IMG/VR virus record: IMGVR_UViG_3300038696_000259
Location: 1-30,622 of that record
Reading direction: 5' to 3' (one strand)
Length of the DNA: 30,622 bases
Origin: a virus
Position 1 is the first letter of the stretch. The number at the start of each line of letters is the position of its first letter. The notes below the pieces were generated by a model, which saw nothing but the letters and a program-made list of their open reading frames with translations, did no database searches and had not been told where the DNA came from. The position numbers and the translations under genes were made by a program. Shown here one piece after another: positions 23,644 through 30,622 of this stretch.

Positions 23644-24203
23644 TGATGAAAAAAATAATCTTATTATTTGCCGTTTTCCTAATCTTAGGATGTGGCACCA
23701 GAAAAAAGGCACTTCAAAAAACTGTTGTAAAAGAAGAAGTGTCCGTAAAAAAAGACCTTAAACTGTCCGTAAAAAGTGACGTAAAAAAAACAGTTGTAAA
23801 GGATTACTTTACAACTGAATTAACAAGTGATATAAGCGCCACCTTTGAAGGAAAAGTATCTGATAGCACTAAGCCAGCAAGTATAGAAGAACGTATTACT
23901 AATGGCAGCAAAACGATAATTTTCACCAATTTTAAAGAGGTCAAGACTTCTGACAAAGCAGCTGCAGCAAAAAAAACAGCAGCTATTAAAGATAGCTTGT
24001 CAATAATTGACTTGTCTAAAAAAGACATTGATCATCAGGAATCAGCAAATCAAAATCTTTCTATTGATCAAAAGGATCTCGCAGTCGAAAGTGAAAAACC
24101 TAACGGATGGAGCAGCCTAGCATGGTCCTTAATTGGCATAGCAGTAGTTGCCATAGGTGGGCTAATATTTTATTTTTGGAATTATAGGAAGAGACGTATT
24201 TAA
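23643..24203 (+). CDS. Unimolecular spanin candidate: lipoprotein with C-terminal membrane helix
   Basis: 186 residues. Signal peptide with lipobox LILGC (Cys17), then a Lys-rich periplasmic segment predicted to be β and coiled, and a C-terminal membrane helix at about 158-179 (WSLIGIAVVAIGGLIFYFW) with a basic cytoplasmic end (RKRRI). An outer-membrane lipid anchor and an inner-membrane anchor on one chain is the definition of a u-spanin (as in phage T1), which fuses the two membranes in the last step of lysis. It follows the endolysin directly. Within its end lies the promoter for the tmRNA. Confidence 0.78.
   Translation: MMKKIILLFAVFLILGCGTRKKALQKTVVKEEVSVKKDLKLSVKSDVKKTVVKDYFTTELTSDISATFEGKVSDSTKPASIEERITNGSKTIIFTNFKEVKTSDKAAAAKKTAAIKDSLSIIDLSKKDIDHQESANQNLSIDQKDLAVESEKPNGWSSLAWSLIGIAVVAIGGLIFYFWNYRKRRI
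24148..24178 (+). promoter_or_regulatory. Bacteroidota-type promoter for the tmRNA gene
   Basis: TTG (24148-24150), a 20-base gap, then TATTTTTG (24171-24178), matching the Flavobacterium consensus TTG-N17-23-TAnnTTTG exactly. It lies inside the end of the spanin gene; transcription would begin near 24184, just upstream of the tmRNA acceptor half. Confidence 0.6.
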
Positions 24204-24204
24204 A

Positions 24205-24451
24205 ATTTCACACGCTGCTAGGCTTTTGATGGCAGCACTTTGGACGGCGGTTCGATTCCGCCCGACTCCACAAGCACTCGCCGTGCATTAAGTGATGCAG
24301 CACTATACCTGCAAATGGGGTCGAACGGTATTGACAGGTGCAAAGTCGCAAAATATAGGCGTGAGAAGATGATAACAGGCAACTGGAATCAAGAATTGAA
24401 AGCCGCAGCGTAAGACGCAAAGCAATCACGGGTAACTACGATAAAGTTTTG
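24205..24451 (+). ncRNA. ssrA: Circularly permuted (two-piece) tmRNA
   Basis: Rescues stalled ribosomes by adding a degradation tag. The 3' half comes first: T stem-loop GGCGG-TTCGATT-CCGCC (24246-24262), acceptor strand CGACTCC (24263-24269), discriminator A24270; CCA is not encoded. After a 46-nt intervening segment (24271-24316) with a hairpin, the 5' half starts GGGGTCG (24317-24323). The two acceptor strands pair at all 7 positions, including G3-U70, the alanine identity pair. A D-domain-like AACGGTATTGACAGG follows. CAAAGT (24341-24346) pairs with ACTTTG (24237-24242) as helix P2. The tag frame ends GNWNQELKAAA-TAA (stop 24411-24413), and hairpin GCGT-AAG-ACGC spans the stop, as P5 does. 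The exact ends, resume codon and a first pseudoknot are not settled. Confidence 0.82.
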
Positions 24452-24480
24452 AAAACCACTTCTAACGAGGTGGTTTTTTT
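24452..24480 (+). terminator. Rho-independent terminator of the tmRNA gene
   Basis: AAAACCAC (24452-24459) pairs with GTGGTTTT (24470-24477), with two further pairs inside the loop, followed by more T. It lies 38 bases after the tag stop codon, closing the tmRNA transcript. Confidence 0.8.
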
Positions 24481-24525
24481 ATGGCCTAAAAATAAAAGTG
24501 TTAAAGTTTGCTTTTTATAGTTCGA

Positions 24526-24559
24526 GATATCTAAGTAGTGCGTATATTTGGATATCTAA
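24526..24559 (+). promoter_or_regulatory. Promoter with flanking GATATCTAA direct repeats
   Basis: TATATTTG (24543-24550) matches the -7 box TAnnTTTG. Two copies of GATATCTAA (24526-24534 and 24551-24559), 25 bp apart, flank it, as operator half-sites would. No TTG is seen at the proper -33 distance. It precedes the small gene at 24589. Confidence 0.45.
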
Positions 24560-24588
24560 TTAAAACAATAACATTTAAATCAAGCATT

Positions 24589-24864
24589 ATGAAAACTCAA
24601 ATCAACATCTGGAATCAAAACACTGGTAACGAAATAGTAACTCTTAGTCAGTTAAGAACAAGAATTTCACAAAGAAGAATGGATGCTTTAAATCCGTTAA
24701 GTAAAAATTCTGTTAAAAAAGAAATTACAGTGATGACTACAAATAAAGAATTACAGCAAGTAGCTGCTCATTATAAAAGTTTTGAAATTAGAACATTTAG
24801 TCATGCAAAAGCAATCGAAATTTATAACGCTGGTGGTGGTCAAAAAGCTTCTTTAATTAACTAA
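24589..24864 (+). CDS. Hypothetical protein, 91 residues
   Basis: Not recognised. Basic protein starting MKTQINIWNQNTGNEIVTLSQLRTRISQRRMDAL with a C-terminal αβ segment ending YNAGGGQKASLIN. ATG 24589 is chosen because it lies a normal distance after the -7 box at 24543-24550. It has its own promoter with a repeat pair and its own terminator, so it is a single-gene unit that could be expressed from the prophage. It sits between the tmRNA and the attachment region. Confidence 0.68.
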   Translation: MKTQINIWNQNTGNEIVTLSQLRTRISQRRMDALNPLSKNSVKKEITVMTTNKELQQVAAHYKSFEIRTFSHAKAIEIYNAGGGQKASLIN

Positions 24865-25293: not shown

Positions 25294-25338
25294 CTTCTAA
25301 GGAGGCGGTCACAGGTTCGAATCCTGTCGGGCTCACAA
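25294..25338 (+). other. attP: attP core: 3' half of tRNA-Arg(TCT)
   Basis: The sequence from the anticodon loop (CTTCTAA, anticodon TCT at 25296-25298) to the 3' end of a tRNA: GGAGG anticodon-stem strand, CGGTC variable loop, T stem-loop ACAGG-TTCGAAT-CCTGT (25311-25327), acceptor CGGGCTC (25328-25334) and A. CCA is not encoded. The 5' half (GAGCCCG strand and D arm) is absent, so this is not a working tRNA gene but the piece that restores the host tRNA gene on integration. It lies 150 bp before the integrase. Confidence 0.82.
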
Positions 25339-30072: not shown

Positions 30073-30622
30073 TGGATGCCGTAGATAATAAAGCTTTTAA
30101 TAAAGCAAATAGTAACTCAAAATTAATAAAGTTGGAAACAGGTCAGCTGCCACCACAAGCGTTAGATCTTGAGCAGGTAGTGCTAGGCGCATTAATGATT
30201 GATACAGATGTAGTCAGTGATATTACAACTCTTTTATCTACTCAGGATGTTTTTTATTCTAAGCAGCATCAGGCTATCTACGAAGCAATAACAATGCTGG
30301 CAATAGATATGAAACCTGTTGATTTACTTACTGTATGCGAGCAGTTAAGATTTAATGGTAAGCTAGAGGTATCTGGTGGAATGCATTACATAGTTGAGTT
30401 GACTCAATTAGTTAGTAGCACTGCACACACCCACTTTCACAGCAGGATACTAATGCAAAAGTATATAGGTCGTCAAGTGATTAAGATGGCCAGTAATCTA
30501 ATTGGTAGGGCATATGATGATGACACAGATGTAATTGAACTACTTGCAGAAAGTTCTAATGAATTAAGTGCTATTCAAGATTTAATGATGAGTGGCGTTC
30601 GTCAAATGACAATGAGTGAGGC
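30069..30622 (+). CDS. dnaB: Replicative DNA helicase DnaB, N-terminal part (continues at window start)
   Basis: N-terminal domain with the DnaB signature LPPQALDLEQVVLGALMIDTD near residue 28 and the helical bundle that binds primase. ATG 30069 overlaps the previous stop (ATGA). The frame runs into the window end and rejoins the C-terminal part at 1-995 across the 49-bp terminal repeat, with one residue (Arg or Cys) differing between the two copies. Confidence 0.95.
   Translation, partial: MMDAVDNKAFNKANSNSKLIKLETGQLPPQALDLEQVVLGALMIDTDVVSDITTLLSTQDVFYSKQHQAIYEAITMLAIDMKPVDLLTVCEQLRFNGKLEVSGGMHYIVELTQLVSSTAHTHFHSRILMQKYIGRQVIKMASNLIGRAYDDDTDVIELLAESSNELSAIQDLMMSGVRQMTMSE
30574..30622 (+). 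repeat. Terminal redundancy: circular overlap with bases 1-49
   Basis: Bases 30574-30622 equal bases 1-49 except base 27 (T at the start, C at the matching base 30600), which changes Cys to Arg in DnaB. The gene reads in frame across the join, so the molecule is circular or circularly permuted with a unit length of 30,573 bp. Confidence 0.9.

Follow-up and report, generated by a model that had tools for sequence, protein, structure and literature searches.

The window, by which we mean the whole 30,622-base IMG/VR virus record analysed here, contains at positions 24205–24480 a complete circularly permuted (two-piece) tmRNA gene of a temperate, most likely flavobacterial, phage. Model matches and comparative analysis confirm, at the level of sequence, that the locus is a real permuted tmRNA gene, and its anatomy supports a model, to which we assign a probability of roughly 0.85, whereby it is a working ssrA gene that serves the phage as an accessory. 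This model draws on the architecture of the locus, its conserved and covarying helices, its conserved tag frame, its presence or absence as a unit, and the lack of a phage SmpB; it has to accommodate a host-unlike KAAA tag end, hosts that already have a tmRNA of their own, and the fact that no older lineage model scores above its cut-off.

Results

Phage genome and model matches

The window genome is probably complete and circular because a 49-nt direct repeat, with one mismatch, is found at both ends (1–49 and 30574–30622). It encodes a terminase, portal, protease, HK97-type capsid, tape measure, amidase, DnaB helicase, replication initiator, and tyrosine integrase, while no SmpB gene was found in it. 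The closest cultured relative is Cellulophaga phage phi39:1 (46% in the terminase), which is similar across most structural and replication genes, and a flavobacterium is therefore the most likely host. ARAGORN detected no tmRNA in phi39:1. Searching for the host with the attP tRNA described below gave at best two of 396 genomes, each with two mismatches, and identified no host; a terminase search matched none of 401 genomes.

The Rfam model RF04321 (tmRNA_permuted) matches 24211–24489 with 59.8 bits (E 2.2e-9, cut-off 47), and ARAGORN, run on linear input, independently called a permuted tmRNA with the tag GNWNQELKAAA. At gathering thresholds, RF04321 is the sole Rfam tmRNA model listed in the window. 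The one-piece model RF00023 reaches 20.9 bits, below its cut-off of 47, and beta_tmRNA, the best of the older lineage models (RF01849–RF01851), reaches 39 bits against a cut-off of 84 over the tRNA-like part; alpha_tmRNA and cyano_tmRNA are absent from an E-value scan of the window that omits lower-scoring overlapping matches of the same clan. Membership of the RF04321 class is supported by the score, the order of the halves and their spacer, the acceptor stem with its G3–U70 pair and covariation, P2, and the tag frame with its stop. The original prediction of a permuted tmRNA gene in a Bacteroidota phage, with a 3' half, a 46-nt spacer, and a 5' half, is thus borne out by RF04321 and ARAGORN, and in the Rfam comparison proposed with it none of the three older lineage models rose above its cut-off.

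Anatomy of the gene

The features of the locus are collected in Table 1. The two acceptor strands, predicted to pair fully, form seven standard pairs including G3–U70, with A as the discriminator, and CCA is not encoded (A-CAA). The P2-like helix expected to join the halves is found and can be refined into two segments, P2a and P2b, and the frame expected to end in KAAA-stop is the one read by ARAGORN. The 5' half brings together the acceptor 5' strand, the D-like loop, the P2 strands, the tag frame, and the terminal hairpin, the last of which does not match a terminator consensus pattern. Of the proposed P5-like hairpin over the stop codon, the hairpin itself is present, but it has only 3 bp in the window and is longer in most relatives.

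Table 1 Features in and around the permuted tmRNA gene of the window
Feature	Position	Strand	Basis or remark
Promoter-like element of Bacteroidota type, TTG-N20-TAnnTTTG	24148–24178	+	Pattern match
Unit present in window, absent from sibling phage G397	24195–24446	+	Alignment with locus L189; ~35 unrelated nt instead
tmRNA 3' (acceptor) half, first in gene	24205–24270	+	RF04321 match from 24211; ARAGORN; putative start
P2b 3' strand CACGC	24211–24215	+	Pairs with 24359–24363; outer helix of RF04321 alignment
Conserved CTAGG downstream of P2b 3' strand	24218–24222	+	
P2a 3' strand GCACTT	24235–24240	+	Pairs with 24336–24341; covariation
T arm GGCGG-TTCGATT-CCGCC	24246–24262	+	Pairing in 99.2% of cells across 25 sequences, with covariation at 3 pairs
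Acceptor 3' strand CGACTCC and discriminator A	24263–24269; 24270	+	7/7 pairs with 24317–24323 in all 25 sequences
Spacer between halves, 46 nt	24271–24316	+	Removal by tRNA end processing expected
tmRNA 5' (mRNA-like) half	24317–24480	+	RF04321 match to 24489; ARAGORN
Acceptor 5' strand GGGGTCG	24317–24323	+	
D-like GGTATTGAC	24327–24335	+	
P2a 5' strand AGGTGC	24336–24341	+	Covariation
P2b 5' strand GCGTG	24359–24363	+	Overlaps conserved ATAGG 24355–24359; RF04321 alignment, cis versus trans duplexes
Tag frame GNWNQELKAAA and stop TAA	24378–24413	+	ARAGORN; resume codon GGC preceded by ATAACA; 11 codons
Small stop-codon hairpin GCG-TAAGA-CGC	24408–24418	+	Segment fold; 3 bp
Terminator-like hairpin AAAACCAC...GTGGTTTT and T run	24452–24480	+	Sequence; present also in sibling without tmRNA

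Duplex and two-strand free folds recover native structure unreliably, and a free fold of the window's two pieces did not recover the native T arm. A pairing of about 17 pairs between the leader of the 3' half (24212–24231) and the end of the tag frame (24398–24414) was set aside, as it barely beats trans pairs across the family (818/20000).

Relatives in phages and genomes

Scanning IMG/VR and 84,980 GTDB genomes with an IUPAC pattern that describes a permuted gene having a short spacer and TTGAC gave 26 IMG/VR contigs and a single GTDB genome, a Bacteroidales MAG. An RF04321 search of 396 Bacteroidota genomes gave matches only in this MAG and in genome G235. As we read the translations, the contig of the MAG gene also carries a tape-measure-like gene, and the G235 gene lies beside phage-type helicase and DNA polymerase genes; each genome also has a one-piece tmRNA. 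Similarity searches of named phages revealed permuted tmRNA genes in the crAss-like phages cr10_1, cr50_1, cr60_1, cr114_1, and cr125_1 and in two cultured phages, Chryseobacterium phage MA9V-3 and Maribacter phage Panino, all labeled plain SsrA in public records. These records contradict the statement made with the original prediction that none was known in a Bacteroidota phage.

Spacers measure 37–57 nt in the short-spacer relatives and 60–214 nt in three others (L178, L169, and L174). The permuted gene adjoins tRNA genes in L119, L122, L140, L155, L128, and L234, and stands alone in the window. In the locus of crAssphage cr114_1 (L175, 1516–1722), a tRNA-His gene (1554–1626) lies inside the spacer between the halves, and RAGATH-9, RAGATH-20, or RAGATH-22 motifs (Rfam) occur near the permuted tmRNA of the crAss-like loci L174, L175, L176, and L177.

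Covariation between the halves

Covariation was assessed for the acceptor, T, and P2a helices in 25 aligned sequences. Paired cells amount to 91.1%, against 75.3% with shuffled partners and at most 63.4% in slid controls; 72 cells are changed on both sides, against 20 when shuffled; and covariation scores 0.432, where shuffling gives 0.128 and sliding no more than 0.145. The shuffle significance is overstated because the sequences are related, but the slid controls preserve this relatedness and agree. The acceptor stem has seven of seven pairs in every sequence, two positions showing 3–4 pair types. The search pattern had fixed acceptor positions 1–4 and 7 and left positions 5 and 6 free, and the free positions are Watson–Crick in 25/25 sequences, compared to 36% with shuffled partners. 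The P2a register is paired at 0.76 versus 0.59 when shuffled (0/5000), with five of the six pairs changed on both sides, 74% pairing overall, and a shifted register in a few members. For the P2b regions, cis duplexes are stronger than trans duplexes (26/20000 permutations as low). Judged by these tests, the architecture of the window gene is not due to chance, and the acceptor and P2a helices covary among related phages, as the original prediction required, with P2b supported by the comparison of cis and trans duplexes.

The same conservation bears on the idea that the locus is a decaying pseudogene acquired by chance. The gene is absent from a sibling phage and its D-like loop is 1 nucleotide shorter than the RF04321 consensus; against this, the acceptor pairs, T arm, P2, and frame are all intact, and a contig from another metagenome (L114) carries a near-identical copy (99.8%, one difference in 420 nt) even though the gene preceding the tmRNA (window 23649–24203) is only 65% identical there. 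We consider decay very improbable. The next nearest sequence after L114 is L147 (79% over 103 nt).

A discrete accessory unit beside an integrase

The sibling phage G397 is closely related to the window phage (integrase 84%, portal and capsid 99%). The two genomes are near-identical downstream, but a stretch of about 250 nt that lies in the window between the preceding gene and the common terminal hairpin is missing from G397, and ARAGORN found no tmRNA at this locus (L189). Because a sibling with near-identical flanks lacks exactly this stretch, the alignment identifies the window tmRNA as a discrete accessory gene that is acquired or lost as one block. The small ORF after the tmRNA (24538–24864) is almost identical at the DNA level in the tmRNA-less sibling and has no PHROG match.

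The integrase gene lies 1 kb downstream of the tmRNA, and ssrA is a common integration target. The 3' half could accordingly be pictured as an attP derived from the 3' end of a host ssrA, its permuted look being incidental. A role of this kind has been suggested for phage Panino (PMC11590407). In the window, however, a separate tRNA 3' half at 25294–25335 adjoins the integrase gene and is kept in the tmRNA-less sibling; it is the likely attP and derives probably from tRNA-Arg(TCT), judging by its anticodon loop CTTCTAA. A 5' half, a tag frame, and a covarying partner would, moreover, not be expected of an attP, and the same arrangement of halves recurs in crAss-like phages. With the apparent attP located elsewhere, we rejected the attachment-site explanation, which retains next to no likelihood.

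Upstream of the tmRNA, the promoter-like element is the single match to its pattern on both strands of the whole window; since 1.05 matches are expected by chance, it is the position of this match that is notable. Elements resembling the -7 motif occur upstream of about ten relatives, and the tmRNA-less sibling lacks the -33 TTG at this position. A role of the element as promoter for the tmRNA is suggestive only.

Tags and the stop-codon helix

Almost all relatives have a readable tag frame, and the tags end mostly in Ala or Ala-Ala. Examples are GKVIQMFAQPVRLAA, GKVVNLFNAPLRATA, and GKLISLNNAPLRAVA, with GNFYVTDYTRIAA and similar tags in crAss-like members. Phage tags often follow the form GKVIxxxxxPLRxAA; the window tag shares its ELKAAA end with L116. 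The lead into the resume codon and its spacing of 38–46 nt from the GAC motif recur among relatives, and in most of them the tag end overlaps a helix around the stop codon. The host one-piece tags sampled are GExNYALAA (e.g., GEDNYALAA), ANDYSYAMAA, and kin. As the window tag ends in KAAA rather than in host-like ALAA or AMAA, proteolysis of tagged proteins may be weaker.

Origin of the permuted form

In line with the expectation that Bacteroidota chromosomes carry the ordinary form, 40 of the 41 Bacteroidota genomes sampled have a one-piece tmRNA. Part of these one-piece RNAs share GGTTTTGACAGC with the phage RNAs. Over 30 non-helical columns, excluding the T/C column, at which the search had been selective, the phage RNAs differ on average by 4.65 from TTGAC-type Bacteroidota one-piece tmRNAs, by 7.59 from other one-piece tmRNAs, and by 6.77 from other permuted ones. 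Nearest neighbours, again without the T/C column, are TTGAC-type one-piece in eight cases, other one-piece in one, and other permuted in six, with ten ties. In a weakly resolved 55-column tree, the phage rows are intermixed with Bacteroidota one-piece rows and do not form one group (9 changes).

It follows that an independent, fourth permuted lineage in Bacteroidota phages, perhaps permuted more than once, is favoured but short of proof, because the mean distances favour it while the neighbour counts are equivocal and the 55-column tree is weak. The further independent lineage raised by the original prediction therefore stands on mean distance and falls short on neighbours and tree. Alternatively, the phages could have taken up the gene in permuted form, from a two-piece tmRNA of Alphaproteobacteria, Betaproteobacteria, or Cyanobacteria, which would fit the six neighbours and ten ties, the beta_tmRNA score over the tRNA-like part, and the few phage rows that group with other permuted sequences in the weakly resolved tree. 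We hold this to be rather unlikely given the smaller mean distance to TTGAC-type one-piece RNAs, the encoding of CCA in only one of the 25 phage permuted sequences, the grouping of the window in the same tree with one-piece L223 (100/87), and the likeness between L147 and the one-piece L216/L218, which are exactly alike over 25 nt at the 5' end and have GGGGTCGACTGGTTTTGACAGCAAG in common.

Discussion

In two-piece tmRNAs, such as that of Caulobacter, tRNA-processing enzymes cleave the precursor, CCA is added, and the acceptor stem and P2 hold the pieces together; AlaRS charges the RNA, which then works with SmpB in trans-translation. In our model of the window gene, transcription, driven probably by the promoter-like element at 24148 and/or continuing from the late genes, would yield a single precursor that terminates at the hairpin near 24480. 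Host tRNA-processing enzymes would cut the acceptor ends, the spacer would be discarded, CCA would be added, and the two pieces would stay joined through the acceptor stem and P2. With AlaRS, EF-Tu, and SmpB of the host, SmpB being assumed to come from the host because the window encodes none, the phage RNA would gain entry to ribosomes that stall on broken mRNAs in the infected cell, and addition of Ala-GNWNQELKAAA to the unfinished protein would mark it for proteolysis and free the ribosome. Transcription, processing, charging, tagging, and benefit to the phage are all inferred here from the anatomy of the locus.

The main functional rival to this model is a decoy, i.e., a phage RNA that is charged or bound by SmpB but inhibits trans-translation by the host. 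A precedent exists in mycobacteriophage DS6A, in which a tmRNA consisting only of the tRNA-like domain inhibits the host tmRNA (PMC4131195; PMC11915505), and the lack of a SmpB of the phage's own is compatible with such a role. Yet the DS6A RNA is without a tag frame, whereas the frame, the lead into the resume codon, and the stop hairpin are kept here across diverse phages, making a decoy improbable compared to a working tmRNA.

Going further, and tentatively, since we put the odds of the whole somewhat below even, we propose that the working phage tmRNA represents a fourth lineage that was permuted at least once within phages from a host one-piece tmRNA, that two forms of tmRNA, each with its own kind of tag, coexist in infected cells, and that the phage tag directs proteins to a fate suited to infection. 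If this is true, viruses are a setting where permutation can originate or be maintained, and a single cell can harbour two forms of tmRNA whose tags differ. The cultured members Panino and MA9V-3 make the question why phages carry tmRNA directly testable. Our results also indicate that a permuted gene can go unrecognised in phage records that call it simply SsrA.

The presence of tmRNA in Bacteroidota phages was already known from annotation; the permuted form there was previously unremarked. RF04321 was introduced in the tmRNA database paper, which distinguishes three main permuted clades and includes 79 sequences from phages (PMC11915505), and 53 two-piece tmRNAs have been found among 18,146 phages, mostly aquatic (PMC9004378). 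A tmRNA is reported in Cellulophaga phage Calle and in Maribacter phage Panino, its form being unstated in the available parts of these sources (PMC8776804, PMC11590407). Our literature search, which covered main texts, found no paper on permuted tmRNA in Bacteroidota phages.

The window gene shares with the permuted two-piece tmRNAs of Alphaproteobacteria, Betaproteobacteria, and Cyanobacteria (RF04321; RF01849–RF01851) the order 3' half, spacer, 5' half, the tRNA-like core with G3–U70, a P2 that joins the pieces, and a tag frame in the 5' half. The Bacteroidota-phage group differs from them in having mostly GGNNTTGAC instead of GGNNTCGAC, in rarely encoding CCA, and in its tags; its carriers are phages of Bacteroidota, and the window exceeds no lineage-specific Rfam cut-off. 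Phage-borne permuted tmRNAs that use host machinery are also found in Methylophilales phage Melnitz and Pelagibacter phage Mosig (PMC9004378), but such marine phage tmRNAs are assigned to alphaproteobacterial, cyanobacterial, or gammaproteobacterial lineages. The five crAss-like phages, MA9V-3, and Panino agree with the window in host phylum and gene order, while these phages are larger and the crAss-like spacers are long; the Panino tag GKVMNVSFAPTVRQFA resembles the consensus of the phage group. Among phages of Flavobacteriia, Cellulophaga phages Calle_1, phi38:1, and phi14:2 likewise carry a tmRNA, but in the standard one-piece form (ARAGORN). Finally, the one-piece tmRNA of Bacteroidota chromosomes (RF00023) resembles the phage RNAs in the motif shared by part of the phylum and in a CCA that is often unencoded, and differs from them in being unpermuted and in its tags of the GExNYALAA or ANDYSYAMAA type.
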